In this document: positions 1,849-27,013 of the stretch, piece after piece | Layout: every line of letters begins with the position of its first letter | Position numbering within the stretch: the first letter of the stretch is position 1 | Source of the DNA: Paragemmobacter kunshanensis | GTDB taxonomy: Bacteria > Pseudomonadota > Alphaproteobacteria > Rhodobacterales > Rhodobacteraceae | DNA: 64,000 bases | Assembly: GCF_011059185.1 (NCBI RefSeq) | Contig: NZ_JAALFE010000002.1 | Location: 1-64,000, forward strand | Direction: 5' to 3' | Translations under genes and position numbers: made by a program | The notes under the pieces: model-generated | Told to the model about the DNA's origin: nothing | Seen by the model: only the letters and a program-made list of their open reading frames with translations | The model's database searches: none

Positions 1849-1871
1849 GGGGCACCCCCTGCGCGGAACGT

Positions 1872-3514: not shown

Positions 3515-3569
3515 GTGTATTCCCCGTTGGTTGGGGGCGGGGGCGTTCTGCGGCCCCTTCGCCCATATG

Positions 3570-5482: not shown

Positions 5483-5484
5483 CT

Positions 5485-5508
5485 CCCCTCCCCGCGGGCG
5501 GGGAGGGG
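5485..5508. terminator. GC-rich hairpin between convergent genes
   Basis: CCCCTCCCCGC pairs with GCGGGGAGGGG around a two-base loop, directly after the araC-type stop and before the end of the convergent thiolase gene. There is no clear U-tract. It resembles the element at 1872-2002. Confidence 0.5.
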
Positions 5509-5533
5509 TTGGGGGAGGGGTCGCCGGGATGGG

Positions 5534-8641: not shown

Positions 8642-8709
8642 GTTTTGCGATGGTGTCAGCCTTTTCGCCAGATGGGCGCATTCCGCGCCGGATGACGGGA
8701 TTTCGGGCG

Positions 8710-12163: not shown

Positions 12164-12975
12164 TGGGCGCGATGGCGGGGCTGAAGCCCGAACATTTCCT
12201 GTGGGAGGTGGTGGACCGGGTGGCCGTGGTGCGGCTGAACCGGCCGGAGCGGAAGAATCCGCTGACCTTCGAGAGCTATGCCGAGTTGCGGGATACCTTC
12301 CGCGCGCTGGTCTATGCCACGGATGTGGATGTGGTGGTGATCGCGCCGAACGGGGGGAATTTCTGTTCCGGCGGGGATGTGCATGACATCATCGGCCCGC
12401 TGGTGGGGATGGAGATGAAGGAGCTCTTGGCCTTTACCCGGATGACGGGGGATCTGGTCAAGGCCATGATCGGCTGCGGCAAGCCCATCATCGCGGCGGT
12501 GGATGGCGTCTGCGTGGGGGCGGGGGCGATCATGGCGATGGCGTCGGACCTGCGGCTGGCCAGCCCTGGGGCGAAATGCGCCTTCCTGTTCACGCGTGTG
12601 GGGCTGGCAGGGTGTGACATGGGGGCCTGCGCGATGCTGCCGCGCATCATCGGGCAGGGGCGGGCGGCGGAACTGCTGTACACGGGCCGCGTGATGCGGG
12701 CGGAGGAGGGGGAGCGGTGGGGCTTCTGGAACGCGCTGCATGCGGCGGAAGAGTTGGAGGCGGCGGCGATGACGCTTGCGCGGGCCTTGGCGGCGGGGCC
12801 TGTCTTCGCGCATGGGATCACCAAGACGCAGCTTAACCAGGAATGGAACATGGGGCTGGAACAGGCGATCGAGGCCGAGGCGCAGGCGCAGGCGATCTGC
12901 ATGCAGACGCGGGATTTCGAGCGGGCCTATCGGGCTTTCGTCGCCAAGGAGACGCCGGTGTTTCGCGGGGATTGA
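12163..12975 (+). CDS. Enoyl-CoA hydratase/isomerase family protein
   Basis: A 270-residue crotonase. [12 protein letters not shown] and [17 protein letters not shown] form the oxyanion hole. The region normally holding the second Glu reads [23 protein letters not shown], so the usual Glu is not obvious; the enzyme may perform a ring hydration, hydrolytic ring opening or deaminating step rather than simple hydration. ATG at 12163 shares a base with the MarR stop (TGATG); a GTG one codon earlier is possible. A hydratase of this type is present in described anthraniloyl-CoA clusters. Confidence 0.8.
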
Positions 12976-12988
12976 GATGTCGCAGGGC

Positions 12989-13074
12989 GATTTTTCTGCG
13001 AAAAATCAGGGGGCGTTCCGCCCCCTCGTCGCTGACGCTCCTCACCCCCTGAGGGTATTTTTGCCAAGATGAAG
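12989..13074. repeat. Composite intergenic repeat: two hairpins plus GGTATTT...CCAAGATGAAG word
   Basis: Within the 104-base gap before the acyl-CoA dehydrogenase gene come a hairpin GATTTTTC-TGC-GAAAAATC (12989-13007), the 19-base palindrome AGGGGGCGTTCCGCCCCCT (13008-13026), and the word GAGGGTATTTTTGCCAAGAT (13051-13070). The palindrome recurs exactly, in inverse orientation, at 43303-43321, and the last word recurs at 39326, 43219 and 50464. This is a dispersed chromosomal repeat that may also attenuate transcription inside the operon. Confidence 0.7.
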
Positions 13075-13079
13075 ATGAC

Positions 13080-14216
13080 ATGAGCGATAGAACCTTTCTG
13101 GACTGGCCCTTCTTCGAGGCGCGGCATCGCGAGTTGGCGGTGGCGCTGGAGGAATGGTGTGCGGCGCATCTGCCGGTGGATCATGGCGATGTGGATGCGG
13201 CCTGCCGCGGGCTGGTGGCGATGCTGGGGGCCGGGGGGTGGCTGCGCCATTCCGGGGCGGGGGCGGGCGAGCGGCTGGATGTGCGCACGCTCTGCCTGAT
13301 CCGCGAGACGCTGGCACGGCATGACGGGTTGGCGGATTTCGCCTTTGCCATGCAGGGGCTGGGGATGGGGGCGGTGAGCCTGTTCGGCACGCCCGCGCAG
13401 CAGGAGTGGCTGGCGCGGACGCGGGTGGGGGCGGCGATTTCGGCCTTTGCGCTGACAGAACCCGGATCGGGGTCGGATGTGGCGGCGACGTCGACCAAGG
13501 CCACGCGGGTGCAGGGCGGCTGGTTGATCGAGGGCGAGAAGACCTGGATTTCCAATGGCGGGATTGCCGATGTCTATGTCCTCTTCGCGCGGACGGGTGA
13601 GGGGCCGGGGGCGAAGGGGTTGTCGGCCTTCCTGATGCCCGCTGACACGCCGGGGCTGGAGGTGGTGGAGCGGTTGGAGGTGATCGCGCCGCATCCCTTG
13701 GCCACGCTGCGGATGAAGGGGCTGGTGCTGCCGGAGGAGGCGCTGATCGGCGAGGCGGGGGCGGGGTTCAAGATCGCCATGTCGGTGCTGGATGTGTTCC
13801 GGTCCACCGTGGGGGCGGCGGCGCTGGGCTTTGCGCGGCGGGCGCTGGACGAGGCGCTGGCGCGCGTGAAGGCGCGGCGGATACAGGGGCAGGCGCTGGC
13901 GGAATTGCAGATGGTGCAGGGGCATCTGGCGGATATGGCGGTGAAGATCGACGCCGCGGCGCTGCTGGTCTATCGGGCGGCATGGAAGAAGGACAATGGC
14001 GCGGCGCGGGTGACGCGCGAGGCGGCGATGGCGAAGCTCTATGCCACCGAGGCCGCGCAGGAGGTGATCGACATGGCGGTGCAGTTGCATGGTGGAGATG
14101 GCGTGCGGCACGGGTCGGTGGTGGAAAGCCTCTATCGCGAAATCCGCGCGCTGCGGATCTATGAGGGGGCGTCGGATGTGCAGCGGGTGGTGATCGCCCG
14201 CAGCATCCTGAATTGA
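13080..14216 (+). CDS. Acyl-CoA dehydrogenase
   Basis: A 378-residue FAD acyl-CoA dehydrogenase. [14 protein letters not shown] and [19 protein letters not shown] bind FAD, and [18 protein letters not shown] is the dimer/FAD region. [16 protein letters not shown] retains the catalytic Glu of the YEG motif. It should introduce a 2,3 double bond in a ring or open-chain CoA intermediate of the anthraniloyl-CoA route. Codon use and strand match the operon, although a repeat element separates it from the hydratase gene; the start codon lies six bases after that repeat and has no clear Shine-Dalgarno. Confidence 0.85.
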
Positions 14217-14235
14217 ACAACGGGAGGGACAGGAC

Positions 14236-14688
14236 ATGACCAAGGCACTTGACGGCGGTATCACCCGCGATGGCACGGCCTATCACGGGCGCGAGCTGAA
14301 CATTCTGGGGCAGCGCTATTTCCCCAAGGCCAGTTGCGAGGCGAGCTTCGCCTTCGAGACCAACAGCGAGCCGGGGCAATACGTGCCGGTCCATGTCCAT
14401 CCCACGCAGGATGAGTTCATCCTTGTGCAGGAGGGGCAGTTGGAGCTGAAGCTGGATGGTGTCTGGCAGACCGCCCGCGCGGGCGATCTGGTGCGGATGC
14501 CGCGGGGCGTGCCGCATGGCTATTTCAACAAGTCCGACAAGCCCTGTCGCGCGCTGTTCTGGGTATCGCCCGCAGGCAAGCTGGAGGCGCTGTTCGACAC
14601 GCTGCATGACATGACGGATATCCCCGCCATCGTCGCCGCCTCGGCGGCGCATGACGTGGATTTCCTGCCACCCGAAGCCAACGACTGA
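14236..14688 (+). CDS. Cupin-domain protein
   Basis: A 150-residue single-domain cupin. The metal-binding motif 1 is VPVHVHPTQDEFILVQEGQ (residues 52-70) with two His and a Glu, and motif 2 is MPRGVPHGYFN. A GGGAGG ribosome-binding site precedes the start, 19 bases after the dehydrogenase stop. The function is unknown. A metal-dependent isomerase, hydrolase or dioxygenase on a CoA intermediate, or a sensor, is possible. Its place between the dehydrogenase and the thioesterase ties it to the aromatic-CoA operon. Confidence 0.7.
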   Translation: MTKALDGGITRDGTAYHGRELNILGQRYFPKASCEASFAFETNSEPGQYVPVHVHPTQDEFILVQEGQLELKLDGVWQTARAGDLVRMPRGVPHGYFNKSDKPCRALFWVSPAGKLEALFDTLHDMTDIPAIVAASAAHDVDFLPPEAND

Positions 14689-14694
14689 TCGGTC

Positions 14695-15102
14695 ATGTAT
14701 CAGCGCACGATCCGGGTGGAGTTCAACCATTGCGATCCGGCGGGGATCGTCTTCTATCCCCGCTATTTCGAGATGACGAATTCCGTGATGGAGAATTTCT
14801 TCCGCGAGGTGGTGGGCTATTCCTATCACGCCATGATGGATGACGGGATCGGCGTGCCGACCGCGCGGGTGGAGACGGATTTCCGCGCGCCCTCGCGCCT
14901 TGGCGATGTGCTGGATTGGGGGATGGTGGTCGAGGCGGTGGGCGGATCATCGGCCACCTTCCGGCTGGAGGCGCGCAGTGGCGCGGAACTGCGGCTGATC
15001 ACGCGGCTGGTGCTGGTGTGGATGTCGCCCGAGCATCGGCCCGCCCGCTGGCCGGATCGTATTCGCGCGGTGCTGACCGCGCATCTGGAGACGAAAGAAT
15101 GA
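14695..15102 (+). CDS. 4-hydroxybenzoyl-CoA thioesterase-like hot-dog protein
   Basis: A 135-residue hot-dog thioesterase with the family motif VEFNHCDPAGIVFYPRYFEM near the N terminus; the Asp of CDPAG is the expected catalytic residue. Such enzymes remove CoA from aromatic or dead-end thioesters and protect the CoA pool during hybrid aromatic pathways. The next gene starts inside its stop (ATGA overlap), so the two products are made together. A thioesterase plus RidA pair is also reported in the Azoarcus evansii 2-aminobenzoate cluster. Confidence 0.8.
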   Translation: MYQRTIRVEFNHCDPAGIVFYPRYFEMTNSVMENFFREVVGYSYHAMMDDGIGVPTARVETDFRAPSRLGDVLDWGMVVEAVGGSSATFRLEARSGAELRLITRLVLVWMSPEHRPARWPDRIRAVLTAHLETKE

Positions 15103-15506
15103 CCGACAGCACGCTGCAATTCCTGCATCCGTCGCATTGGAAGCCCGCCATCGGCTATTCCAACGGGGTCGCCGCCACGGGGCGGATGGTCTTTACCGGG
15201 GGGATCATCGGCTGGAATGCCGATCAGGTTTTTGAAACCGATGATTTCGTGGGGCAGGTGGAACAGGCCCTGAAATCCATCGTCGAGGTGCTGGCCTGTG
15301 CTGGTGCGGGGCCGGAGCATCTGGTGCGGCTGACATGGTATGTCACCGACAAGCGGGAATATCTGGGTTCGCTGAAGGAGTTGGGCCGCGTCTACAAGGC
15401 GGTGATCGGGCGGCATTACCCGGCGATGGCGCTGGTGCAGGTGGTGGCGCTGGTCGAGGACCGCGCCAAGGTGGAGATCGAGGCGACGGCGGTGATTCCC
15501 GCCTGA
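15099..15506 (+). CDS. RidA/YjgF (L-PSP) family protein
   Basis: A 135-residue RidA-like protein (MVFTGGIIGWN, QVEQALKSIVEVLACAGAG, VRLTWYVTDK, YPAMALVQVVALV, KVEIEATAVIP). Canonical RidA hydrolyses reactive enamine/imine intermediates and needs an Arg in the C-terminal part; here the corresponding segment is VVALVEDRAKVEIEA, so canonical deaminase activity is uncertain. In a pathway that yields a 2-amino-cyclohexene-CoA, a protein that hydrolyses an enamine/imine and frees ammonia would make sense; this is inference. The ATG overlaps the thioesterase stop by four bases. It is convergent with the CoA ligase gene. Confidence 0.75.
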   Translation: MTDSTLQFLHPSHWKPAIGYSNGVAATGRMVFTGGIIGWNADQVFETDDFVGQVEQALKSIVEVLACAGAGPEHLVRLTWYVTDKREYLGSLKELGRVYKAVIGRHYPAMALVQVVALVEDRAKVEIEATAVIPA

Positions 15507-15513
15507 GCGTCAG

Positions 15514-17139
15514 CTAGCCGCGCAGGCGGAAGCGCTGGATCTTGCCGGTCTGGGTTTTCGGCAGCGCTTCGGTGAAGATCACGCGGCGGGGGTATTTGTA
15601 GGGCGCGATGACCTTCTTCGCGTGGTCCTGCAGGAGTTTCACCATCAGCGCATCGCCCGCATGGCCGGGGGCCAGCACCACATGCGCCTCCACCACCTGA
15701 CCGCGGTCCGCGTCGGGCGCACCGATAACGGCGCATTCGAGGACGGCGGGATGGGAGAGGAGGGCGGCCTCCACCTCCGGCCCGGCGATGTTGTAGCCTG
15801 CGGAGATGATCATGTCGTCGGAGCGGGCGGCGAAGTGGAAGCGCCCCTCGTCATCCTGCCAGAAACTGTCTCCCGTCAGGTTCCAGCCGTCCCTCACATA
15901 GGCGGTCTGGCGTCTGTCGGCCATGTAGCGGCACCCGGTGGGGCCGCGCACGGCAAGGCGGCCGACCTCTCCCCTTGGCAGTTCCTCCATGTCGGGGCCG
16001 ACGATGCGCGCCTGATACCCAGTGACGGGGCGGCCGGTGCAGCCGGGGCGGTGGTCATCGAAGCGGTTGGTCAGGAAGATGTGCAGCATCTCGGTCGCGC
16101 CGATCCCGTCAAGCATGGGCTTGCCCGTCTTGGCCTGCCATTCCTCATAGACCGGGGCGGGAAGGGTTTCGCCCGCGCTGACGGCGGCGCGTAGCGACGA
16201 CAGGTCGGCGCCTTCGTCCATCGCCTTGAGCATCACGCGATAGGCGGTGGGGGCGGTGAAGCAGATGGTGGCGCGGTGTTCGGTGATGATGTCGATCATG
16301 TTGGGCGGGCTTGCCTGTTCCAGAAGCGCCGCCGCCGCGCCGAAGCGCAGGGGGAAGATGGCAAGGCCACCGAGGCCGAATGTGAAGGCAAGGGGTGGAG
16401 AGCCGACGAAGACGTCGTCGGGGGTGACGCCCAGGACTTCCCGCGCATAGCCGTCGGCGATGATCAGAAGGTCGCGGTGGAAATGCATCGTGGCCTTGGG
16501 TTCGCCCGTGGTGCCGGAGGTGAAGCCCAAGAGCGCCACGTCGTCGCGCCCCGTGGGGGGCGGGGTGAAGCGGACGGATTTTCTCAGCGCGATGCGGTCA
16601 AGTTCGGCATCGTGGTTGGCGGTGCCGTCAAAGCCGATCACCGTGTGCAGGAAGGCGCTCTCCTTCTGGCAGGTGACGAGGTCCTCCATCAGGCGGGTGT
16701 CGCAGAGGGCGTGGGTGATCTCGGCCTTGTCGACGATCTTGGCCAACTCGCCCGCGCGCAGCATGGGCATGGTGTTCACCACCACCGCGCCCGCCTTGGT
16801 GGCGGCCAGCCAGCAGGCGACCATGGCGGGGTTGTTGGCGGATCGGATCAGGACGCGGTTGCCGGGTTTGACGCCGTAATCGTCGACCAGCGCATGGGCG
16901 ATGCGGTTGGTCCAGTCGGTCAGTTCCTTGTAGGTGCGGCTGCGGCCATTGCCGATCAGGGCGGTGTGGTCGCCAAAGCCGCGCTCCACCATGCGGTCGG
17001 TCAGTTCGACGGCGGCGTTCAGCCATTCGGGATAGGCAAAGCCGTCAAGCATCAGGTCGGGCCATTGATCCGCCGGGGGCAGGTTGTCGCGGGTGAAGCT
17101 GTCGACATGGCCTGACGGGCCGAGGGAGAGGCTGTGCAT
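15514..17139 (-). CDS. Benzoate/2-aminobenzoate-CoA ligase
   Basis: A 541-residue acyl-adenylate-forming ligase. The AMP-binding P-loop is LGFTSGTTGEPKATMHFH. The adenine region is DGIGATEMLHIFLTN, the hinge is RSDDMIISAGYNIAGPEVE, and the C-terminal catalytic Lys is in LPKTQTGKIQRF. The length and benzoate-CoA-ligase-like motifs match the 2-aminobenzoate-CoA ligases that start the hybrid pathway. The location eight bases past the convergent RidA gene supports anthranilate as substrate, but benzoate or a substituted benzoate is possible. It is 80 bases downstream of the permease gene on the same strand, with a strong hairpin in between. Confidence 0.8.
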   Translation of the reverse strand: MHSLSLGPSGHVDSFTRDNLPPADQWPDLMLDGFAYPEWLNAAVELTDRMVERGFGDHTALIGNGRSRTYKELTDWTNRIAHALVDDYGVKPGNRVLIRSANNPAMVACWLAATKAGAVVVNTMPMLRAGELAKIVDKAEITHALCDTRLMEDLVTCQKESAFLHTVIGFDGTANHDAELDRIALRKSVRFTPPPTGRDDVALLGFTSGTTGEPKATMHFHRDLLIIADGYAREVLGVTPDDVFVGSPPLAFTFGLGGLAIFPLRFGAAAALLEQASPPNMIDIITEHRATICFTAPTAYRVMLKAMDEGADLSSLRAAVSAGETLPAPVYEEWQAKTGKPMLDGIGATEMLHIFLTNRFDDHRPGCTGRPVTGYQARIVGPDMEELPRGEVGRLAVRGPTGCRYMADRRQTAYVRDGWNLTGDSFWQDDEGRFHFAARSDDMIISAGYNIAGPEVEAALLSHPAVLECAVIGAPDADRGQVVEAHVVLAPGHAGDALMVKLLQDHAKKVIAPYKYPRRVIFTEALPKTQTGKIQRFRLRG

Positions 17140-17219: not shown

Positions 17220-18671
17220 TCAGGACCGGTTCTCGCCCATCCGGGCGAAACCGGCAGGATCCGCCTTTTCCAGCCGCAGCGCGGCCAGCCAGCCGATCAG
17301 CGCCGCCGCCGGGATGATGGCGGGCAGGATCCAGCCCAGCGCGCCGCCGGTGGTGCCGGTCAGGTCGCCGAAGTTCAGGAAGATATAGACGAAAAGCGCC
17401 GCCATGATCAGCCCGGAAACGGCGGGCAGGATCAGGGTGGCAAGCGGGCCTTCGCCCTTGGCGTTCGACCGGAAGAAGGCGATCACGGCAAGCGATGTCA
17501 CCGTCATCATCCCCAGCACGCCCAGCGTGCCCACCTGGCTGATCCAGGTGAACATGTTCAGGATCGGGTCCAGCCCCAGCCCGGCAAAGACCGCCAGGAT
17601 CACCAGCGCGCCGATGGTCTGCACCACAGATCCGACATGCGGGCTGGAATGCGCGTCATGGGTGCGGCCAAAGGCTGCGGGCAGAAGCCCCTCGCGCCCG
17701 GCGACATAGCTGTAGCGGGCGATGTAGTTGTGAAAGGCCGAAAGCGCGGCAAAAAGGCTGGAAACCAGCAGGATCCCCGCGATCGGCGGCACCGGGCCGC
17801 CCACATAGATGTCGGCCAGCATGAAGAAATACTCGGTCGGGTCAGCCAGTCCGCCGATGGTCGGGATCAGGTTCTCTGCCCCGACGCCCGCGATCATCAG
17901 CCAGGTGGTAAAGACGAAGAACAGACCGATCATCAGGACCGACAGATAGGTCGCGCGCGGGATGGTCTTTTCGGGATCACGCGCCTCTTCGGCATAGATC
18001 GTGGTCGCCTCGAACCCGATGAAGGAGCCAAGGCAGAAAAGGATGGCCGCGGTCAGCGACCCCGAGAAGATGGCATTGGTGTCGAAGAGGTTCACCGAAA
18101 GCCCGCCCGCATCCGCCGCCCCGCCCGCGCCGAGGATGGCGAAATCGACGATCAGCACGATGAGGTATTCCAGCGCCACCAGCACGATCAGCACCTTGGC
18201 CGACAGGTCCACCTGCCGATAGCCCAGGATGCCCACCAGCAGGATGGCGATCAGGCTCCAGCCCCACCAGGGCAGGTTGATGCCGAAACTGCCGAAGACG
18301 CCTGCGGCGATGCCGCCCAGAAGGCCGATCAGGCCGAATTGCATGGCGTTATAGGCGGCCAGCGCGGTAAAGGCCGTGGCCCCGGCCCAGCGCCCGCCAA
18401 GCCCGCGCGCGGCATAGGCATAGAAGGCGCCCGCGTTCTTCACGTAACGCGACATGGCGACATAGCCCACCGCGAAGGCCAGCATCACCAGCGTCATGAA
18501 GAGGAAGGTCGCGGGGACGCCCGTCCCGTTGCCGATCAGAAAGGCGATGGGCACCGCCCCCGCCACCCCCGTCAGCGGGGCCGCGGCCGAGATCACCATG
18601 AAGGTGACGGCCAGCAGCCCCAGCGAATTGCGGCGAAGCTGGTTGGCCCCGCCCTGCGAAATCTCGGTCAT
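17220..18671 (-). CDS. APC-family amino acid/amine permease
   Basis: A 483-residue inner-membrane transporter with about 12 hydrophobic segments, starting with LGLLAVTFMVISAAAPLTGVAGAVP, the typical first helix of APC permeases. FCLGSFIGFEATTIYAEEARDPEKTIPRA is the conserved helix-6/loop region. The ATG at 18671 has AAGGAG upstream. It is the last gene of the operon that begins with the NicX-like dioxygenase, so it probably imports the amine or amino-acid-like substrate of that pathway. Confidence 0.85.
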   Translation of the reverse strand: MTEISQGGANQLRRNSLGLLAVTFMVISAAAPLTGVAGAVPIAFLIGNGTGVPATFLFMTLVMLAFAVGYVAMSRYVKNAGAFYAYAARGLGGRWAGATAFTALAAYNAMQFGLIGLLGGIAAGVFGSFGINLPWWGWSLIAILLVGILGYRQVDLSAKVLIVLVALEYLIVLIVDFAILGAGGAADAGGLSVNLFDTNAIFSGSLTAAILFCLGSFIGFEATTIYAEEARDPEKTIPRATYLSVLMIGLFFVFTTWLMIAGVGAENLIPTIGGLADPTEYFFMLADIYVGGPVPPIAGILLVSSLFAALSAFHNYIARYSYVAGREGLLPAAFGRTHDAHSSPHVGSVVQTIGALVILAVFAGLGLDPILNMFTWISQVGTLGVLGMMTVTSLAVIAFFRSNAKGEGPLATLILPAVSGLIMAALFVYIFLNFGDLTGTTGGALGWILPAIIPAAALIGWLAALRLEKADPAGFARMGENRS

Positions 18672-18756
18672 TGTCCACTCCTTGTTGGTTGGCGAGGCCG
18701 GTCTTGCTGCCGGTTGCCGGTTCTTTCCGGGGCGAGCGGGCCCGCCCCGGAGGATG

Positions 18757-19266
18757 TCAGTCCCCCTTGGGCAGATGGACGGCCCGGCGATAGGCGCGCT
18801 GGCCGTAAAGCAGGGCCGAGGGGGTGTCGGACAGGCGCACGGAATGGACCTGTCCGACGATGATGTGATGCGTCTCCCACAAGAGGGCCGTGGCAAGACG
18901 GCATTCGAAAACGGCGGTGGCCCCGGCCAGAAGGGGCTGGCCCAGGGGGCCATGCGTCCAGTCCGCCTGGGCAAAGCGCTGGGCATGATCGCCCCCCGCA
19001 CGGCCGGCAAAGAGGTTCGATATCTCTTGCTGATCTTCGGCCAGAAGATTGGCGCAAAAGGCCCGGTTGGCCAGGATGGCCGCGGCGGCGGGGCTCTGGT
19101 GGTGGATGCAGGCCAGAAGCGAGGGCTGTTCCCCATCCGCCGAAACCGAGGTGAGCGAGGAGATCGTCACCCCCGCCAGCCCCCCCGGCCCATCGGTCGT
19201 GGCGACGGAAACGAAGGTGGCGGCGCGGCTCATGCCTTCCAGAAAGCGGGCGCGAAGGGTTTCCAT
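18757..19266 (-). CDS. Flavin reductase-like protein (FMN reductase component)
   Basis: A 169-residue flavin-reductase-domain protein (SRAATFVSVATTDGPGGLAGVTISSLTSVS, PSLLACIHHQSPAAAAIL, HHIIVGQVHSVRL). These proteins supply reduced flavin to two-component monooxygenases. The likely oxygenase partner is the acyl-CoA-dehydrogenase-fold flavoprotein at 22583-23926 in the same operon. It lies six bases downstream of the glutamine-synthetase-like gene. Confidence 0.8.
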   Translation of the reverse strand: METLRARFLEGMSRAATFVSVATTDGPGGLAGVTISSLTSVSADGEQPSLLACIHHQSPAAAAILANRAFCANLLAEDQQEISNLFAGRAGGDHAQRFAQADWTHGPLGQPLLAGATAVFECRLATALLWETHHIIVGQVHSVRLSDTPSALLYGQRAYRRAVHLPKGD

Positions 19267-19271
19267 CCGCC

Positions 19272-20612
19272 TCAGCCCAGATCGAAGAAGCGTTCGAGTT
19301 CCACATCCGGCACCCGGCGGCGGAATTCGTCATGCTGGCATTCGCGGGTGGCGGTGAAGGCCTCGACGAAGCGGGGACCGAGCCAGTCCTTGGCGAAGTC
19401 CGATCCCCGCAGGCGGTCGATCGCCTCGGGCATGGACCGGGCGAAATCGCGGGGCGGGGTCTGGGCATAGCCCGAGCCGATGGTTTCAGGATCGGGTTCC
19501 ACGGCCTCGAGGATGCCCGCCACGCCTGCGGCGATGGTGGCGGCGGCGGTGAGGTAGGGGTTGGTATCGGCCCCCGGCAGGCGGTTTTCCACCCGCAGGC
19601 TGCCCGCGTCATGGCCCACGAGGCGGAAGCAGGTGGTGCGGTTCTCATATCCCCAGGTCAGGCCGGGGGGGGCAAAGGTGCCCGGCGCGAAACGGCGATA
19701 GCTGTTCACCGTGGGCTGGAAGATCAGCGTCATGTCGCCGATGTATTTCTGCAGGCCGCCGAGGAAGTGCCGGAAGGTCTGGCTGACGCCGTTCTTGCCG
19801 CCCTCGTCCCAGAAAAGCGGCTTGCCCGCCTTGTCCTTCAGGCTGACATGCAGGTGGATCGACTGGCTGTCGGCCTGTTCGTTCCAGCGCGGCATGAAGG
19901 TGACGGATCGGCCCTGACGCAGGGCCAGCGCGCGGATGAAGTTCTTCAGAAGCACCAGTTGGTCGGCCGGTTCCAGCCCCTCGCCCGCGCCGATGCAGGC
20001 CTCCATGAAGCCTGCGCCGATCTCCTCGTGCATCTTGGCAAGGTTGATCTTCAGCGGTTCGCAGATGGCAGAGATGGCTTCGTACCATTCCGTCTGCACG
20101 GCCTGATAAAGGATCAGGTCATGGCTTGCATGCTGGGTCGCGGGTTTCAGATTGCGATAGCCCTTGGCGCGCGCGCTTTCGGCGGTTTCGTCGAACAGCG
20201 TGTATTCCAGCTCCATGCCGTATTTCGGGATGAACCCGGCCGCGCCTGCCCGCGCCAGCACCGATTTCAGGATCGACCGGGGGCAGATCTGGGCCGAGGC
20301 CCCGGTGTAGTTGGACAGGACCAGCAGATCATGCCCGGGCTTCGACCAGGGCATCTGCCGCACGGTGGTAGGGTCGAGTTCCAGCGGATCGTCATGGAAA
20401 TCGCCGCTGTCGTCATTCACGCCCGGAATCGTCAGCATGGCATCGGTCGGATCCAGCGCCAGTTGCGCGGGGGCCATGCCCATGCCGTTGCGGGCAATGC
20501 CCTTCAGGCTTGAGACGGAAACCATCTGCCCGCGCAGAAGGCCGTTGGTATCTGCCATGGCCACGGTTGCGAAACGGCTGGCCGGATCGGCGAGGAAGTC
20601 GTCGAGTGTCAT
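19272..20612 (-). CDS. Glutamine synthetase-like ligase (gamma-glutamyl-amine synthetase type)
   Basis: A 446-residue protein of the glutamine synthetase fold. It has the N-terminal beta-grasp part (FATVAMADTNGLLRGQMVS), the metal-binding Glu region KYGMELEYTLFD, a second Glu motif EEIGAGFMEACIGAGEGL, and the ATP/substrate segment NSYRRFAPGTFAPPGLTWGYENRTTCFR. Relatives include PuuA and the gamma-glutamyl-anilide and isopropylamide synthetases, which couple glutamate to amines. It lacks the adenylylation loop and context of GlnA. In an operon with a ring dioxygenase and an amine permease, gamma-glutamylation of an amine substrate is plausible. The start overlaps the TetR stop by four bases. 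Confidence 0.8.
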   Translation of the reverse strand: MTLDDFLADPASRFATVAMADTNGLLRGQMVSVSSLKGIARNGMGMAPAQLALDPTDAMLTIPGVNDDSGDFHDDPLELDPTTVRQMPWSKPGHDLLVLSNYTGASAQICPRSILKSVLARAGAAGFIPKYGMELEYTLFDETAESARAKGYRNLKPATQHASHDLILYQAVQTEWYEAISAICEPLKINLAKMHEEIGAGFMEACIGAGEGLEPADQLVLLKNFIRALALRQGRSVTFMPRWNEQADSQSIHLHVSLKDKAGKPLFWDEGGKNGVSQTFRHFLGGLQKYIGDMTLIFQPTVNSYRRFAPGTFAPPGLTWGYENRTTCFRLVGHDAGSLRVENRLPGADTNPYLTAAATIAAGVAGILEAVEPDPETIGSGYAQTPPRDFARSMPEAIDRLRGSDFAKDWLGPRFVEAFTATRECQHDEFRRRVPDVELERFFDLG

Positions 20613-21289
20613 TCCCTGTTCCCTGTCAAACGGGCGCTTTCAAGCGCCTCTAGCTGTTCGAGATCGTGCATCGGATGGGTGGAATAGGCGCGCAGGAAGA
20701 CGCGCAGCCCGTTCATGATGTAGCGGCCCAGCTGCGCCCGCGTGGGCTGGCTGTCGGGCAGGTAAAGCGCCTGGGTGCGCGGGGCCGAAAGGATCAGGCC
20801 CCAAAGATCCTGCGCGGCAAGTTCGGCATCGTCGAAGGACAGCCGCCCCGCCGCGCGCTGGCCGGTCAGATAGGCCATGATCCCGCGCAGCAGTTCATCC
20901 GGGCCCGAGGATTGGTAGGCGCGGCCGATCTCGGGAAAGCGCTGCACCTCGCCGATGATCAGCCGGGCCAGCGACAGCATGTCGGGGCGCATCACCGTAT
21001 CGGCATAGGCCCAGGCAAAACCCAGAAGATCCGCCACCATTCCCCCGGGCGAGGGATGTTCGAAGACCGTCAGCATGACATCGCCCTTGCCGTGCATCAT
21101 GGCCTGAAAGAGCGCCTCCTTGCTGTCGAAATACTGGTAGAGCGTGGGCTTCGACAGGCCCGCCTCGGCGGCCACGGCATCCATGGTGGTGCCGGAATAG
21201 CCCTGTTCGGAAAACACCTTCAGAGCGGCCTCCAGAATGCGCCGCTCACGATCAATCCGGTTCTGGGCGCGGCGGGAGGGGGCGGTCAT
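20609..21289 (-). CDS. TetR-family transcriptional regulator
   Basis: A 226-residue TetR repressor. The N-terminal helix-turn-helix (ILEAALKVFSEQGYSGTTMDAVAAEAGLSKPTLYQYFDSKEALF, residues 18-61) is textbook. The C-terminal domain resembles AefR-like TetR_C proteins (RLIIGEVQRFPEIGRAYQ). It is embedded in the catabolic operon with ATGA overlaps on both sides, so it is co-made with the enzymes and probably represses the operon promoter at 24985-25167. Confidence 0.85.
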   Translation of the reverse strand: MTAPSRRAQNRIDRERRILEAALKVFSEQGYSGTTMDAVAAEAGLSKPTLYQYFDSKEALFQAMMHGKGDVMLTVFEHPSPGGMVADLLGFAWAYADTVMRPDMLSLARLIIGEVQRFPEIGRAYQSSGPDELLRGIMAYLTGQRAAGRLSFDDAELAAQDLWGLILSAPRTQALYLPDSQPTRAQLGRYIMNGLRVFLRAYSTHPMHDLEQLEALESARLTGNRE

Positions 21290-22578
21290 GCGGGCAGGCC
21301 CTGCAGGAAATCGGTCAGGTGGCGGTTATAGGCATCCGGTGCCTCGACATTGCAGACATGGCCCGCGCCGGGGATCACCTCGAACCGCACGTCGGGGCGG
21401 GGGGCGCTGTCCCAGATGCGGCCCGCCACGGCGCGGATCTCGGCCGGCGGGGCGAGGCGGTCATGCTCGCCGGTCATCATCAGGACGGGCATCGTAAGGC
21501 GCGAAAAGTCGAAGCGTTCCAGCGGGTTGGTGAAACAGACCAGCGCATCGCGATAGGTCGAGGCGGGAATCGCGGCCATGGAGGCCAGGAGATCGGCCTT
21601 CACCCCGTCAGAGGCATCTGGTCCTGCCAGCACCTTCACCACGGCGGGGGCGAAATCGGCCGGGACCTGACCCGCGTTCAGCGGCACCTCGCGCGACAGG
21701 CGGAAGGCCTCACGCTCTTCCGGCCCGGCCTCGGACATGCCGGTGCAGCCGCCCGACAGGACGAGGCCGTCCAGCATCTCGGGGTGGCGCATGGCGAAGG
21801 AGGTGGCGATCCATGAGCCGTAGGAAAGGCCCACAAGAACAAGGCGGCGCGCGCCGAAGGTTTCGGCCACGCGCAGGATATCGGCGCAGTAGTCATCGAC
21901 GGTCGAACCGCGGGGGCCGAGCGTGCTGTCGCCATAACCGCGCAGGTCCAGCGCGGCGGCGCGGATGTGATGGCCTGCCGCGCCCAGCTGCGCGCGCCAG
22001 TTGCCGCGGTTGCCGCCGATGCCGTGGAGGAAGAGGCAGAGCCTGCCATCGCCGCGATCGGGCGTGGCGGAAAGGCCAAGGCGGGGCAGGGCGTCGATCG
22101 TCAATCCGGTGATCGGCTGCGGGGCTGGTGCGGGGGGGTGCGGGGGGGTGCCCTGCACCCCCCCGGCCCCCCTCAGTGCCTCGATCCCGGCCTCAAATAC
22201 TGCGCGGGTGCCGTCGCAGATCTGGGTCAGGCGGGCGGCGGGGGCGGCGATGGTGGCGGTCCATGTCACCACCGACCCGCCCGCATCAGAGGGCGAAACA
22301 GTCAGCCGCGCGTCATAGCTTTCGGCCCCCGCGATGCCGTCCAGGTGGGTATAGGCCAGCACCCGGTCGCTGTCGGAGAAATAGGTCTGCTGTTCGCGGT
22401 AGAGCGTATCCTCGCCCGTCACGGTGAAGGCGCGGATCAGGTGGCCGCGTCCATCACGTTCGGTGCGGATCGTGGCGATCCAGGGATGCCATGCCCCGCC
22501 GAAATCCCGCGCCACGGCCCAGACCTGGGCCGGGTCGGCGGCGACATGGGCGTGGACGTGAACGCGGTCGCGCCCCAT
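21286..22578 (-). CDS. SRPBCC domain - alpha/beta hydrolase fusion protein
   Basis: A 430-residue fusion. Residues 1-140 resemble an SRPBCC/polyketide-cyclase domain (VHVHAHVAADPAQVWAVARDFGG, YREQQTYFSDSDRVLAYTHLD). Residues 160-430 are an alpha/beta hydrolase with oxyanion LFLHGIGGNRGNW, nucleophile elbow LVGLSYGSW, acid TGEHDRLAPP and His in GAGHVCNVE. The nearest functional model is an N-formylmaleamate deformylase (NicD) acting after the NicX-like dioxygenase; this is inference. The linker (about residues 137-153) is coded by G/C homopolymer tracts forming a hairpin, as if two genes were joined there. It starts four bases after the upstream stop and overlaps tetR by ATGA. Confidence 0.75.
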   Translation of the reverse strand: MGRDRVHVHAHVAADPAQVWAVARDFGGAWHPWIATIRTERDGRGHLIRAFTVTGEDTLYREQQTYFSDSDRVLAYTHLDGIAGAESYDARLTVSPSDAGGSVVTWTATIAAPAARLTQICDGTRAVFEAGIEALRGAGGVQGTPPHPPAPAPQPITGLTIDALPRLGLSATPDRGDGRLCLFLHGIGGNRGNWRAQLGAAGHHIRAAALDLRGYGDSTLGPRGSTVDDYCADILRVAETFGARRLVLVGLSYGSWIATSFAMRHPEMLDGLVLSGGCTGMSEAGPEEREAFRLSREVPLNAGQVPADFAPAVVKVLAGPDASDGVKADLLASMAAIPASTYRDALVCFTNPLERFDFSRLTMPVLMMTGEHDRLAPPAEIRAVAGRIWDSAPRPDVRFEVIPGAGHVCNVEAPDAYNRHLTDFLQGLPA

Positions 22579-22582
22579 GGCC

Positions 22583-23926
22583 CTAGCGCAGCCCCTTGAG
22601 CGATCCGGCATCCCCGCGCCAGAGCGAGTTGCGCGCGCCGCCCTCGTCCCCCGGCGCGGTGTCGATTTCGTCCATGTCGTAAAGCGTCAGGATCGACAGG
22701 TAATCTTCCATGATTTCCGACGTATAGGGCAGCATCAGCGCGCCGCAGCGGCTGTCGCGATACATCCGTTCCAAGGGCAGAGAGCGCAGCATGGACTGCC
22801 CGCCGCAGGTGCGGATGGCCATGCTGGTCATTTCCGCCGCGCCTTCCATGACGTTGTACTGCGCGGCATACATGCGCATCACCTCGGCCTTTGTCGGGAA
22901 CCCCTTCGCCTCGGAGAAGGCCTGCCACCAGAGCGCGCGCATATTGGCAAGGCGGGCATACATCTTGCCCACGGCGATGCGTTTCGTTGCATACATGCGG
23001 CGGTCGATGGGGGGCTGACCGGGGACCTGACCCTTGAGATAGGCCACGGTGAAATCAAACGCCCCCTGCGCCACGCCCATATAGGTGGGCGAGAGCGTTG
23101 CCATCATATGCGGCCAGTTGGGCAGGGTCTTGCCGAAGATGCCGCGCGGCATCAGCATGTCTTCGGCCGTGACGAAGACATCTTTCAGGATCAGGTCGCG
23201 GCTGTTCGTGCCGCGCATCCCCAGCGGATCCCATTCGCCCTTGACCGTCAGCCCCGGCGCATCCTTGTGGACGACGAAGAGCATCGTGTCCTCATGCCGG
23301 GGCTCCACGCCTTCGAAGACCTCGGTGCAGACGATGGTGTAGTAATCGCAGTACCCCGCAAGCGAGGCGAATTTCTTGAACCCGTTGATCTTCCAGCCGC
23401 CTTCGACGGCGCGGCACTGGGTCTGGTTCGGTTTCGACGTCCAGTTCTGCCCGCCTTCCGAGATGGGCTGCGAATAGATCGCCTTTTCCGCAATCGCCCG
23501 CTTGAACTGCCGTTCGCGCAGGGGGGCGAATTCGGCGCGTTCCGCATCCGTCAGGTTGGGCATGTCGAACATGAAGCGCGACCATGCCATCGAGGAATTG
23601 TGCATGTTGAAGGTGAGCGCGGTCGCCCCGCAATATTTGGCGATTTCCGCCCCCACCATGGCATATTCCCACATGGTGAAGCCCATGCCGCCATATTCTT
23701 CCGGGATGCAGAGCGTCAGGAACCCCGCCTCGGCCAGATCGCGGTAATTGTCGACGGGGAACGATGCCTCGTCATCCACGGCCTTGGCGCGGGCGGCGAA
23801 GGTCGCGCCCATGGCGTTGACCTTGTCCAGCATGGCCAGCACCTCGGGGCGGATGCGCGATAGGTCATAGTAATCGCCGGGGCTGCTCATGGGCATGGCG
23901 GCGGTGATCGGGCGCTGTTCGGTCAT
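22583..23926 (-). CDS. Acyl-CoA-dehydrogenase-fold flavoprotein, probable flavin-dependent monooxygenase
   Basis: A 447-residue member of the acyl-CoA dehydrogenase superfamily (FLTLCIPEEYGGMGFTMWEY, KINGFKKFASLAGYCDYY, DPLGMRGTNSRDLILKDVFV, CGGQSMLRSLPLERMYRDSR). Where dehydrogenases have the catalytic Glu in a YEGT motif, this protein reads CGALMLPYTSEIM, so the standard base is absent. Together with the flavin reductase gene in the operon, this suggests a two-component (group D) hydroxylase of an aromatic or N-heteroaromatic substrate. A true dehydrogenase remains possible. The ATG overlaps the dioxygenase stop by four bases. Confidence 0.7.
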   Translation of the reverse strand: MTEQRPITAAMPMSSPGDYYDLSRIRPEVLAMLDKVNAMGATFAARAKAVDDEASFPVDNYRDLAEAGFLTLCIPEEYGGMGFTMWEYAMVGAEIAKYCGATALTFNMHNSSMAWSRFMFDMPNLTDAERAEFAPLRERQFKRAIAEKAIYSQPISEGGQNWTSKPNQTQCRAVEGGWKINGFKKFASLAGYCDYYTIVCTEVFEGVEPRHEDTMLFVVHKDAPGLTVKGEWDPLGMRGTNSRDLILKDVFVTAEDMLMPRGIFGKTLPNWPHMMATLSPTYMGVAQGAFDFTVAYLKGQVPGQPPIDRRMYATKRIAVGKMYARLANMRALWWQAFSEAKGFPTKAEVMRMYAAQYNVMEGAAEMTSMAIRTCGGQSMLRSLPLERMYRDSRCGALMLPYTSEIMEDYLSILTLYDMDEIDTAPGDEGGARNSLWRGDAGSLKGLR

Positions 23927-24984
23927 CAGGCAAGCTCTCCCTGCAAAACGCCATCGCGGACGACGACGCGCCCGTCGAGGGCGATGGTGCAATTCCTCAT
24001 CGGAAGGTCGAAATGGCCGAGCGTGTAGCGCCCGGCATATTGATTGGCGCCCGTGGACCACAGGAACGACCCCGCAATGGCGCGGAATTCCACGGCCTGC
24101 ATGTCGCGCTTGTCATACATGGCGGCCGAGACCCATTTCGCGCCGTGGTTCATCCCCCAGCCGACATGCGAAAGGCCATAGGCGTTCCGGTCCTCCCACG
24201 CCTCCATGTATTCGCGCAGGTGCAGGGCATCTATGCCGTCGCCCTTGATCGCGGTGACGAAGTCCTTCTCGATGGTGAAGTCGATCCGGCTGGTGAGGAA
24301 GGTCTTGAACGTCAGGTTCATGTCGCCCACGTCCATGACGATGCGCCCGTTCACCGCCTCCTTGCCGGGGAAGGCAAGGCAGAGGCCACCCGGCCAATGC
24401 GCCACAGCGCCGGGGGTGGTGCCGAAGCCCGCGGTCCCGCCGCAGGGCGCGCCGCGCAGATCGACCGTCAGGTCGGTTCCGGCGGCAGAGGTGACGCGCA
24501 TCTCGGACGCCTCGCGCAGCATCTGGATGCCGATCTGAAGCTTGATCGCGTCCTCGGCCCTGGGTTCGGTGCGTTCCAGGATTTCGGGATGTTCGTTGGT
24601 GATGACCAGAAGGCGGGTGCGCCCCGCCTCTTCGATCTCCGGCCATTCGGGGGCGTGGATCAGCCCCTCGACCGTGCAATCGACGATGATGTCGACACGT
24701 TTCAGCGCCTCGATCACCGCGCGGTTGCCCTGGATCGCCCAGCTTGTTCCGGTGGATTTCACCGGGACCGGGGCCGATTGCGCCGGGGTGGGCATCTGGA
24801 TCATGCAGAAATCCGCGCCGAGGTCATAGGCCGCGAGTTCGCACAGATGCACCAGCACCGGCCGCGACTGCGTTTCCGACAGGATCGCCACCTGCGTCCC
24901 CTTGCCGATCCCGTTCAGCGCGAGGACGCGCCGAAAGGCGGCAAGCCATTTGCCTTCGATGCGTTCCTGAAGCATCCCCACCAT
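23926..24984 (-). CDS. NicX-like 2,5-dihydroxypyridine 5,6-dioxygenase
   Basis: A 352-residue protein strongly similar in its C-terminal two-thirds to NicX of Pseudomonas putida, a non-haem iron extradiol dioxygenase related to M29 aminopeptidases. It shows VMDVGDMNLTFKTFLTSRI, DALHLREYMEAWED, YGLSHVGWGMN and GHFDLPMRNCTI. His273, His324 and Asp326 correspond in spacing to the iron ligands proposed for NicX (His265, His318, Asp320). The reaction would open a dihydroxypyridine-type ring to an N-formyl amide acid. It is often mislabelled aminopeptidase. First gene of a seven-gene minus-strand operon; the upstream 183 bases hold palindromes for the regulator. Confidence 0.75.
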   Translation of the reverse strand: MVGMLQERIEGKWLAAFRRVLALNGIGKGTQVAILSETQSRPVLVHLCELAAYDLGADFCMIQMPTPAQSAPVPVKSTGTSWAIQGNRAVIEALKRVDIIVDCTVEGLIHAPEWPEIEEAGRTRLLVITNEHPEILERTEPRAEDAIKLQIGIQMLREASEMRVTSAAGTDLTVDLRGAPCGGTAGFGTTPGAVAHWPGGLCLAFPGKEAVNGRIVMDVGDMNLTFKTFLTSRIDFTIEKDFVTAIKGDGIDALHLREYMEAWEDRNAYGLSHVGWGMNHGAKWVSAAMYDKRDMQAVEFRAIAGSFLWSTGANQYAGRYTLGHFDLPMRNCTIALDGRVVVRDGVLQGELA

Positions 24985-25015
24985 CCCTGTTGTGCGATTC
25001 GCTTCGATGCGAAAT

Positions 25016-25080
25016 CTTAACTCTTGGGTTAAGGTTTCTGTGAGGGGGGGATTCTGTCAACAGAAATTTCAAACTCAAAT
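25016..25080 (-). promoter_or_regulatory. Palindromes upstream of the NicX-like operon
   Basis: Three candidate operators lie before the first gene: CTTAAC-TCTTGG-GTTAAG (25016-25033), TTCTG-TCAA-CAGAA (25052-25065), and AAATTTCAAACTCAAAT (25064-25080). The last shares its left half with the perfect palindrome at 8624-8641. They are candidates for the operon TetR and for a MarR shared with the anthraniloyl-CoA cluster. No promoter boxes are convincing. Confidence 0.45.
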
Positions 25081-25167: not shown

Positions 25168-26226
25168 TCAGGCGGGCAGGCCTTCGCCACGTCGCGCGGC
25201 CGAATCCTCTGCCAGGTCCAGCAGGGCCTGAAGCTCTGCCCCCCGGGCAAAATCAGGCTCGGCCGGGCCTTCGCCGCGAATCGCCGCGATGAATCGTTCA
25301 TAGACCGTGGGCAGAATGGGGCAGGGCAGTTCCTGCCAGAGCGCGGCTTTCAGGTCCGGTTCCAGGCAGGCGAAGAGCTGGCTTTGCCCGCCTTCGAAGC
25401 GCAGGTCGAGGCCGCCCTTGTCGCCATAGATCCGCAGGCGCAGGTCGTTCAGATGACCACTGGCAAAGCGCGTCGCGGCCACGGTGCCCAGCGCGCCATT
25501 GGCCAGCACCACCTGCATCGTGGCACTGTCATTGGCATCGAGGACATAGTCGCCGATCCGCCCGCCCGGGGCCTTGTCGAAGGTGGCCAGCCGGCAGGAC
25601 ATCTCGGCCACCGGCAGCCCGGCGGCGAAGGTCGCGAAATCGAGGATATGGATCCCCACATCGCCCAGCACGCCCTTCGATCCATGCGCCTGCGACAACC
25701 GCCAGAGCCACTGGCTCTCCTTGTTCCAGGCGCCCCAGGCATCCTGCACCAGCCAGCTTTGCAGATAGCTGGCCTCGAAATGCCGGACGGCACCGATGCG
25801 CCCGGCACGCACAAGGCGTGCTGCCTCCTGCAGGGCGGGGACATTGCGATAGGTCAGGTTGACCATGTTCACCACACCGGCCCGGGCGGCCAGATCGGCC
25901 ATCTCGGCGGCATGGGCGGCGCTGGTGGCCAGCGGCTTTTCGCACAGGACATGCTTGCCCGCGGCCAGCACGGGCAGGGTGGTGGCGTGATGGGCGGCAT
26001 CGGGGGTGACATTGGTCACGGCATCGAACCGGCCCCAGGCCAATGCCTCGTCCAGGGTGGCAAAGCCATGGGGGATGCCGTGGGCCTGCCGGAAGGCGGC
26101 CAGCGCCTCGGGGCGGGGATCGACCCCGGCCACCAGTTCCACCCCGGGAATGGCGGCAAAGCTCTGGGCATGGTTGGCTGCCATGCCGCCGGTCCCGATG
26201 ATCAGCAGGCGGATCGGTTGCGCCAT
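25168..26226 (-). CDS. Gfo/Idh/MocA family oxidoreductase
   Basis: A 352-residue NAD(P)-dependent dehydrogenase. The Rossmann motif is LLIIGTGGMAANHAQSF, the conserved EKP lies in LCEKPLATSAAHA, and GSKGVLGDVGIHILDFATF gives the active-site GGG/D-x-G-x-H region. Such enzymes oxidise sugar, inositol or related polyol carbons. It begins one base after the ThuA-like stop, so both form one unit. The ThuA plus MocA pair is common in sugar-catabolism loci. No transporter gene is attached here. Confidence 0.8.
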   Translation of the reverse strand: MAQPIRLLIIGTGGMAANHAQSFAAIPGVELVAGVDPRPEALAAFRQAHGIPHGFATLDEALAWGRFDAVTNVTPDAAHHATTLPVLAAGKHVLCEKPLATSAAHAAEMADLAARAGVVNMVNLTYRNVPALQEAARLVRAGRIGAVRHFEASYLQSWLVQDAWGAWNKESQWLWRLSQAHGSKGVLGDVGIHILDFATFAAGLPVAEMSCRLATFDKAPGGRIGDYVLDANDSATMQVVLANGALGTVAATRFASGHLNDLRLRIYGDKGGLDLRFEGGQSQLFACLEPDLKAALWQELPCPILPTVYERFIAAIRGEGPAEPDFARGAELQALLDLAEDSAARRGEGLPA

Positions 26227-26227
26227 C

Positions 26228-27013
26228 TCAGCGATACCCTTCCTCGCCGTCGTGATGCAGGCGCGGCCCGCGTTCGGTGATCGGCTCCAGCGCCGCATCC
26301 ACGGGGCGGTTGGGCGCGGCCCCGGGATCGGCGATGCGCGCCGCCGGATTATGGGCCCAGCGCACCGCATTGGCGATCACGCGCTGCACATTGGCATCGT
26401 GATAGGTGGGATAGGTTTCATGCCCCGGCCGGAAGTAGAACAGATTGCCCGCCCCGCGCCGATAGGTCAGCCCCGAGCGGAACACCTCGCCCCCCGCGAA
26501 CCACGAGATGAAGACCGTCTCCAGCGGTTCCGGCACGCCAAAGGGTTCGCCATACATCTCTTCGTGTTCCAGTTCGAAATGATCCGGCAGGCCCGCCGCG
26601 ATCGGGTGCTGGCGGCTGGTGACCCACAGCCTTTCGCGTTCGCCCGCCTCGCGCCATGTCAGGTTGCAGGGCGCGCCCATCAGGCGCTTGAAGGGTTTGG
26701 CGAAATGGGCCGAATGCAGGAAGATCATGCCCATCCCGCCCCAGACCGCCTCGCAGACCCGGTCGACCACGGCATCGGCCACCTCGCCATGGGCGGCATG
26801 GCCCCACCAGATCAGCACATCCGTCGCGGCAAGGGTTTCCGGCGTCAGCCCATGCTCCGGCTCCTGAAGGGTGGCCGTGCGCGCCGTGATGCCCCCCGCC
26901 CGGTTCAGCGCGGCGGCGATGGTGCCGTGCATCGTGTCGGGATAGACCTGCGCCACCACCTTGTTCTTCTGTTCATGGACATTCTCGCCCCAGACGGTGA
27001 CCCGGATCGACAT
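26228..27013 (-). CDS. ThuA-like (trehalose utilisation) protein
   Basis: A 261-residue protein of the ThuA family, which has a class I glutamine amidotransferase-like fold ([69 protein letters not shown]). ThuA is tied to trehalose catabolism in Sinorhizobium, and with ThuB (a MocA-type dehydrogenase) oxidises trehalose-type sugars. The pair here has the same logic: ThuA-like followed by a dehydrogenase. The substrate is unknown. Confidence 0.8.

Follow-up and report, generated by a model that had tools for sequence, protein, structure and literature searches.

Organization of the locus

We analysed 64,000 nucleotides of the Paragemmobacter kunshanensis genome (NZ_JAALFE010000002.1 of assembly GCF_011059185.1, forward-strand positions 1-64,000; hereafter the window), focusing on a seven-gene minus-strand set that an earlier, sequence-only reading had described as an uncharacterized catabolic operon built around a dioxygenase resembling NicX. 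All seven open reading frames (ORFs) were confirmed, in the order given by that reading:

23926-24975 (ORF to 24984), minus strand: NicX-clade protein, predicted non-heme Fe(II) ring-opening dioxygenase; 349 amino acids (aa), matching PDB entry 7cn3
22583-23926, minus strand: acyl-CoA dehydrogenase (ACAD)-fold protein, proposed flavin-dependent oxygenase component; 447 aa, Pfam Acyl-CoA_dh domains, 4-base overlap with the NicX-like gene
21286-22578, minus strand: SRPBCC (Polyketide_cyc2) plus alpha/beta hydrolase, proposed N-formyl/acyl hydrolase; 430 aa, PF10604 and PF00561
20609-21289, minus strand: TetR regulator with an AefR-like C-terminal domain; PF00440 and PF14246
19272-20612, minus strand: glutamine-synthetase-like (GS-like) ligase; 446 aa, PF00120 (GS catalytic domain)
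18757-19266, minus strand: flavin reductase; 169 aa, PF01613
17220-18671, minus strand: APC-family permease; 483 aa, PF00324/PF13520

Successive ORFs overlap or stand a few bases apart as far as the flavin reductase gene, which is followed by an 85-base gap to the permease gene. The NicX-like gene probably starts at 24975, because its relatives begin at ATG-CTT in the upstream alignment.

A NicX-related clade with an altered active site

Pfam supported every gene family assigned by the sequence-only reading except that of the NicX-like protein, for which no Pfam or NCBIfam model matched at E 0.01 and which matched the PDB structure of NicX (7cn3; E 1.7e-58, 34% identity). The AlphaFold model of the protein (mean pLDDT 82.5) gave a TM of 0.89 to NicX, and the same model compared with M29 aminopeptidases, the next fold neighbours, gave a TM of 0.57-0.61 at 12-14% identity. 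The residues that had been picked out as an iron-ligand pattern, His273/His324/Asp326, correspond to His265/His318/Asp320 of NicX, and the fourth NicX ligand, Ser302, which that reading had not listed, is kept as well; the iron of NicX is held by H265, S302, H318 and D320 (PMC7910607). The key enzyme is called 'peptidase M29' in four of the six plasmid records seen to match the NicX-like gene (the other two list no feature), and the fold neighbourhood lends this label some sense; nevertheless, the far closer modelled fit and higher identity to NicX, together with the conserved iron ligands, led us to reject an M29 aminopeptidase as hardly credible, and the model thus favours the NicX-type ring-opening enzyme of the sequence-only reading.

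Active-site residues were surveyed in 116 sequences from the fetched loci (the window copy included, near-duplicates kept), of which 105 stood at 40% identity or more and 11 below. Within the clade of 105, the iron ligands were nearly invariant (NicX numbering: H265 in 105, S302 in 104, H318 in 104 and D320 in 105), as were R293 (105), H105 (105) and H189 (103); two extra residues precede the H105 motif, unlike in NicX. The glutamates E177 and E308 of NicX were found in none of the 105 clade members and in all 11 NicX-type sequences, the two positions in the clade being occupied mostly by T/G/V and Y/H/F/V, respectively. In a tree of 55 of the 117 rows, the 44 clade rows and the 11 NicX-type rows fell into separate groups with a support of 100/100. 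In NicX the product is contacted by E177 and H189, E177 binding at C2 on the substrate/product side, and a role via H105 has been proposed for E308 (PMC7910607).

The absence of E177 and E308 from all 105 clade members indicates that the substrate is not 2,5-dihydroxypyridine, as had been suspected from the window alone; the NicX-like protein is probably a ring-opening iron dioxygenase acting on a different substrate from that of NicX, and on our reading of these replacements the clade substrate would lack the 2-hydroxyl of 2,5-dihydroxypyridine. An ordinary 2,5-dihydroxypyridine or nicotinate-type pathway would fit the NicX fold and iron site, but we rejected the plain NicX reading on account of the separate clade and the lost glutamates; with no amidase or maleate isomerase recognized among the recurrent neighbours (no genome-wide search for nic genes was made), such a pathway appears very improbable.

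A putative two-component monooxygenase and a hydrolase

At the place where 1ws9 has EGTSEI, the ACAD-fold protein has PYTSEI, with a proline in the position of the glutamate, and LMLP(Y/W)T occupies this place in 17 of 17 aligned ACAD-fold members. The glutamate of the EGT motif is the catalytic one in acyl-CoA dehydrogenases. An acyl-CoA dehydrogenase activity was rejected on the loss of this residue, in a comparison that covers that position only. The closest PDB sequences are 5gj7 and 5z8t, the latter titled a flavin-containing monooxygenase, and Foldseek placed the model close to dehydrogenases and monooxygenases alike, the two kinds not being separated. The flavin reductase scored 121 bits against the RutF model, below its cutoff of 254.75. 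Since the glutamate motif is replaced and a flavin reductase gene is adjacent, the sequences suggest that the two proteins form a two-component monooxygenase.

Two further arrangements of these genes were seen among relatives. A fusion of the flavin reductase with a LysR substrate-binding domain occurs in loci L032 (3182-4348), L069 (15700-16866) and L090 (15762-16922) and on Aminobacter plasmid pAA02 (L150), where the annotation reads 'LysR substrate-binding domain-containing protein'; a DNA-binding domain was not detected, an architecture such as a ligand-gated reductase might have. In outer-clade locus L048 (1213-3075), an additional ACAD-fold protein, HsaA-like (323 bits against a cutoff of 450), stands beside the flavin reductase.

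For the SRPBCC-alpha/beta hydrolase protein, the GxSxG motif was kept in 56 of 57 family members, and among 17 PDB relatives one (3kxp, not the closest) hydrolyses a ring-opening product. In four loci, SRPBCC, alpha/beta hydrolase and TetR parts are joined in a single enzyme-regulator fusion of 652-668 aa (L034:6221-8227, L096:12354-14312, L097:12327-14321 and L101:12335-14335).

Conservation of the gene set

A NicX-like match at E <=1e-30 was present in 34 of 398 genomes of the phylum; 19 genomes, including that of the window, matched at 50% identity or more and the rest at 40% or less. The order NicX-ACAD-hydrolase-TetR-GS-reductase was kept in five genomes from two families. The loci of relatives were the best 80 of 562, comprising 59 of an inner clade (at least 62% identity) and 21 outer ones; each gene was counted only in loci long enough to hold it, with near-duplicates kept (L033/L070 and L055/L142 are the same genomes). 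Co-conservation, which the sequence-only reading had proposed as a check, was evident in the inner clade (ACAD 56/58, hydrolase 51/52, TetR 47/49, GS-like ligase 38/47, reductase 35/47, permease 26/46), and these counts support the seven genes being a conserved catabolic operon. In outer loci a different CoA ligase mostly comes after the NicX-like gene (16/18), and hydrolase and ACAD-fold genes were counted in 9/20 and 8/18, respectively; nine of these loci (L108, L109, L111, L112, L113, L115, L116, L126 and L127), eight labelled actinobacterial, carry the ligase with no recognized adjoining hydrolase or ACAD gene. Among the matches listed, those of the inner form came from Rhodobacteraceae, rhizobia, one SAR116 genome and gammaproteobacteria; Rhodospirillaceae, Acidimicrobiia and others supplied the outer form. 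Consistent with the earlier remark that no described pathway has exactly this set, no publication on it was found among the papers listed in searches of the open-access literature.

The GS-like ligase and the upstream region

The score of the GS-like ligase against TIGR03105 (172.8 bits, cutoff 469.6) assigns it to a family and leaves its substrate unfixed; the protein may gamma-glutamylate an aromatic amine. Since 9 of 47 inner loci lack the ligase and no match to it was listed for the 21 outer loci, it is not needed for the core chemistry, and on this gene content it is not part of the operon core.

That reading had also envisaged an aminated pyridine or an aminohydroxybenzoate-like ring that is cleaved directly, its amine being glutamylated. 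The frequency of the ligase in inner loci speaks for this, as does an amidotransferase-like gene, below its model cutoff, that follows the reductase gene in L034, L035 and L096, a kind of pair used in aniline pathways according to one study (PMC4539516). At 35% identity or more to the L089 copy, such a gene was present in 6 of 108 loci (L034, L035, L089, L096, L097 and L139), but none was found among the genes identified beside the window operon; with the ligase dispensable as well, we regard direct cleavage with amine glutamylation as improbable. The proposed substrates are not supported so far, the neighbouring genes described below pointing to a benzo-fused heterocycle that would yield anthranilate.

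Upstream of the NicX-like gene, sequence patterns picked after inspection of the sequence mark one further feature:

24996-25060, minus strand: promoter/operator candidate with TTGACA and inverted repeats

Here TTGACA lies at 25055-25060, the palindrome CTTAAC-N6-GTTAAG at 25016-25033 and a second inverted repeat at 24996-25015. TTGAC[AT] was found in 43 of 57 inner upstream regions (7.6% of shuffles) and a palindrome with 6-base arms in 31 of 57 (18% of shuffles), with the exact CTT(A/T)AC-N6 arms in 16 of 57; a generic promoter scan found nothing. The palindrome is plausibly a site for the TetR regulator.

Linkage to anthranilate-type genes and a gentisate module

The best clue to the product of the operon lies outside the interval covered by the sequence-only reading, in an aryl-CoA ligase gene (lig; 15514-17139, minus strand) and a plus-strand cluster (8650-15506) headed by a 2-aminobenzoyl-CoA-type monooxygenase/reductase (ACMR):

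15514-17139, minus strand: lig, aryl-CoA ligase of anthranilate/benzoate type; 541 aa, PDB match 4wv3
8650-10995, plus strand: ACMR; 781 aa, PRK08255
10917-11735, plus strand: SDR of the ACMR cluster
11732-12163, plus strand: small ORF of the cluster
12160-12975, plus strand: enoyl-CoA hydratase of the cluster; PRK08258, 479 bits
13080-14216, plus strand: acyl-CoA dehydrogenase of the cluster
14236-14688, plus strand: cupin-like gene of the cluster, labelled from its translation
14695-15102, plus strand: 4HBT-like gene of the cluster
about 15093-15506, plus strand: RidA-like gene of the cluster, labelled from its translation

The ACMR scored 1286 bits against PRK08255 (cutoff 1078), a model named salicylyl-CoA 5-hydroxylase/oxidoreductase; within the rest of the cluster (10917-15506) the hydratase alone passed a curated cutoff. 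The best PDB match of lig was anthranilate-CoA ligase 4wv3 (277.7 bits), followed by benzoate-CoA ligase (261.1 bits), and its score of 368.6 bits against TIGR02262, the benzoate-CoA ligase family, fell slightly under the cutoff of 375.25; its sequence leaves the substrate unfixed. Among relatives, 5 of 46 inner loci have lig behind the permease gene in the same orientation; it was seen after the permease gene in L050, L051, L076, L079, L107 and L141, and on the other strand in L072, L090 and L096. A divergent ACMR operon occurs in L034, L035 and L096, subsets of the ACMR-cluster genes adjoin the NicX operon in L034, L035, L072 and L096, and an ACMR gene at 49-50% identity lies within 10 kb in outer-clade L041 and L048, both from a family that may be Bradyrhizobium-like. 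Across 108 mapped loci, lig was found in 9, ACMR (at least 45% identity) in 6 and a gentisate dioxygenase (GDO) gene in 23.

This GDO gene belongs to a gentisate module, GntR / GDO-FAH-nitrilase-reductase2, that stands upstream of the NicX-like gene in part of the loci (GDO within 5.5 kb in 16/46, reductase2 within 2.5 kb in 17/52). Its GDO matches a gentisate dioxygenase of known structure, 3bu7 (E 4.1e-168), and its nitrilase resembles NIT4 (E 8.6e-105). In the window's own genome the module is on another contig (L130, G000:C52, about 1289-5762), near an ABC transporter ATPase match. In L143 (about 4.6-16.2 kb), from a genome with no NicX-clade match at the threshold used, a one-strand row reads ACMR-ECH-ACAD2-4HBT-RidA-lig-GDO-FAH-nitrilase-reductase2. 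One paper describes a CoA branch of anthranilate catabolism and a branch via 5-hydroxyanthranilate and gentisate (PMC4539516), and a 2018 review states that the enzyme of the gentisate branch had not been reported (PMC6221969); the L143 row provides candidate genes for that branch. Among 159 genomes of the family, ACMR was present in 10 of 10 GDO genomes and 45 of 149 others (p 1.4e-5), and GDO in 4 of 16 NicX-clade genomes and 6 of 143 others (p 0.010), with p values uncorrected for relatedness or number of tests. As a precedent, quinaldine upper-pathway genes share one plasmid with those for anthranilate-CoA ligase and ACMR, according to the study concerned (PMC3534580).

Two candidates from these neighbourhoods were set aside. 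A 728-aa reverse-strand ORF over the GDO-FAH-nitrilase stretch is probably an antisense gene-calling artefact, those genes being found in the same places, and a class-V aminotransferase near Acidimicrobiia loci was rejected as a kynureninase, since other transaminase models match it, below their cutoffs.

A proposed route to anthranilate and its alternatives

We tentatively propose, with a confidence that stays somewhat short of even, that the operon serves as an upper pathway in which an N-heteroaromatic ring is opened to supply anthranilate (2-aminobenzoate). A benzo-fused heterocycle leading to anthranilate is suggested because the neighbours, recurrent in a minority of loci, are an anthranilate-type CoA ligase, ACMR and the gentisate module. 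All of the reactions below, their direction and the substrate are inferred. The ACAD-fold oxygenase with the flavin reductase would hydroxylate the ring beside its N-bearing CH. The NicX-clade Fe(II) dioxygenase would then break the bond that joins this C-OH to the N-bearing CH, so that a carboxylate and an N-formyl group remain, a step modelled on the cleavage by NicX at C5-C6 of 2,5-dihydroxypyridine. The alpha/beta hydrolase would take off the formyl group, and lig with the neighbouring ACMR cluster would degrade the anthranilate. An indole-type substrate would need the fewest extra enzymes, in that 3-hydroxyindole (N1-C2H=C3OH), a benzo-fused counterpart of the portion of 2,5-dihydroxypyridine that reacts, would give N-formylanthranilate directly. 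The pathway could start from indole itself or from indole-3-carboxylate, which would lose CO2 when hydroxylated, much as 6-hydroxynicotinate does; indole-3-carboxylate is kept as an option because transporter genes recur and suggest that the compound taken in is polar. In its fullest form the proposal would make the NicX-like clade a new non-heme iron dioxygenase class that uses the NicX fold, consisting of 3-hydroxyindole 2,3-dioxygenases or of enzymes for a close benzo-fused analogue, in a further aerobic bacterial route from indoles to anthranilate, with the linked GDO-FAH-nitrilase-reductase module as the unassigned gentisate-branch genes of anthranilate catabolism; so specific a version is doubtful.

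Several observations weigh against this proposal. Linkage is confined to a minority: among 39 inner loci of at least 19 kb, lig (at least 60% identity) was found in 8 and ACMR (at least 40%) in 2, of which L105 is a weak 40% match. Among the 159 family genomes, the enrichment of ACMR among NicX-clade genomes was weak (9 of 16, with 46 of 143 in the others; p 0.053), and in eight of the nine genomes with both genes they are unlinked, lying hundreds of kb or more apart in G496 and G430 and on different contigs in G429, G436, G456, G512, G525 and G533, so that they are close in the window's own genome alone. Indole diffuses, and APC, Tct or ABC transporter genes recur near the operon. Neither the GS-like ligase nor the nitrilase has a firm role in the scheme. 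The indole oxygenases described so far are classed with styrene monooxygenases and not with ACAD-fold enzymes, an objection softened by a table in the 2018 review that gives IacA and others as ACAD-like (PMC6221969).

Other genes near the operon point to the catabolism of an N-methylpyridine such as homarine (N-methylpicolinate) or trigonelline, in which the pyridine ring would be opened by the dioxygenase, oxygenase and hydrolase trio, and the methylamine or N-methylamino acid set free would pass to the GS-like ligase and to N-methylglutamate enzymes. Three-gene sets labelled by NCBIfam as glutamate-synthase-like only (Pfam GATase, GXGXG and Glu_synthase), which we take to be of the mgs type (N-methylglutamate synthase), were found in 5 of 108 loci (L084, L089, L097, L105 and L139), no more than about 8 kb from the operon. 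An mgsC-like gene was present in 10 of 16 NicX-clade genomes and 48 of 143 others (p 0.024), about as enriched as ACMR, and demethylase-type FAD-oxidoreductase and aminomethyltransferase genes occur within 10 kb in L097 and on pAA02. These findings, too, tell against the anthranilate route. A published hom operon reportedly comprises five enzymes and a regulator and is said to occur in Rhodobacterales and SAR116. Mgd is reported to take part in homarine catabolism. On the other hand, N-methylpyridine catabolism leaves the linkage to the anthranilate-type CoA ligase, ACMR and gentisate modules unexplained, the loss of both acidic residues would suit a less polar substrate, and by our reasoning a NicX-style opening of a pyridinium would need extra electrons; we consider it unlikely. 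Beside the operons of L084, L089, L097, L105 and L139, no orthologue of the window GS-like gene was seen.

The linkage to anthranilate genes would be shared by a 4-quinolone or hydroxyquinoline pathway, in which the ACAD-fold enzyme would give 3-hydroxy-4-quinolone, the NicX-clade enzyme would cleave C2-C3 and N-acyl removal by the hydrolase would lead to isatinate or anthranilate; the quinaldine pathway indeed ends at anthranilate-CoA ligase and ACMR (PMC3534580). Such cleavage, however, would give N-formylisatinate and require an extra decarboxylating step, and no decarboxylating gene was recognized among the annotated recurrent neighbours, making a quinolone substrate rather improbable.

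Relation to known systems

With NicX of Pseudomonas putida KT2440 (7cn3, 7cup), the window protein shares the fold, the four iron ligands, R293, H105 and H189, and a hydrolase gene stands nearby in its operon; the product of this gene is presumably an analogue of NicD. It differs in its separate clade, in the replacement of E177 and E308 and in a partner oxygenase that is an ACAD-fold protein with a flavin reductase. Like the aerobic 2-aminobenzoyl-CoA pathway of Azoarcus evansii, the window has genes of CoA ligase (here of anthranilate/benzoate type), monooxygenase/reductase, hydratase and dehydrogenase type; they differ in adjoining an operon that would open an N-heterocycle.

The indole iif/ind cluster has a presumed anthranilate output and begins with a two-component oxygenase, as proposed here, and a 2-aminobenzoyl-CoA cluster matters downstream of it in one strain; according to the 2018 review (PMC6221969), it comprises IifC/IifD, the dehydrogenase IifB and the cofactor-independent IifA, where the present operon has an ACAD-fold oxygenase, a NicX-clade dioxygenase and an alpha/beta hydrolase. 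The iad genes of Variovorax for degradation of indole-3-acetic acid likewise end at anthranilate, the presumed product here, and the ACAD-like IacA of iac recalls the proposed oxygenase component; iad, however, starts with the Rieske-type IadCDE and carries a formamidase-annotated IadI, and no Rieske oxygenase was recognized among the neighbours annotated here. Gamma-glutamylation of aniline shares a GS-like ligase with the operon, with an amidotransferase-like partner in L034, L035 and L096 (PMC4539516); it differs in that no amidotransferase was recognized beside the window operon and in that the oxygenase here is of another type.

If the proposal is correct, an enzyme family with NicX as its only solved relative in the PDB would gain a second ring-opening reaction, and a sink for N-heterocycles in soils, fresh water and the sea would be given its genes. 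The residue signature of the clade would allow direct re-annotation even if the substrate were homarine-like and not indole-like.

The window opens in the C-terminal part of repC (6-680, at the contig start), which suggests that the contig probably comes from a repABC plasmid or chromid. Just upstream of the operon and on the same strand, Gfo/Idh/MocA-like and ThuA genes lie at 25168-27013, and weak Gfo-like matches (29-31%) are also found upstream of the operon in L051, L055 and L140.

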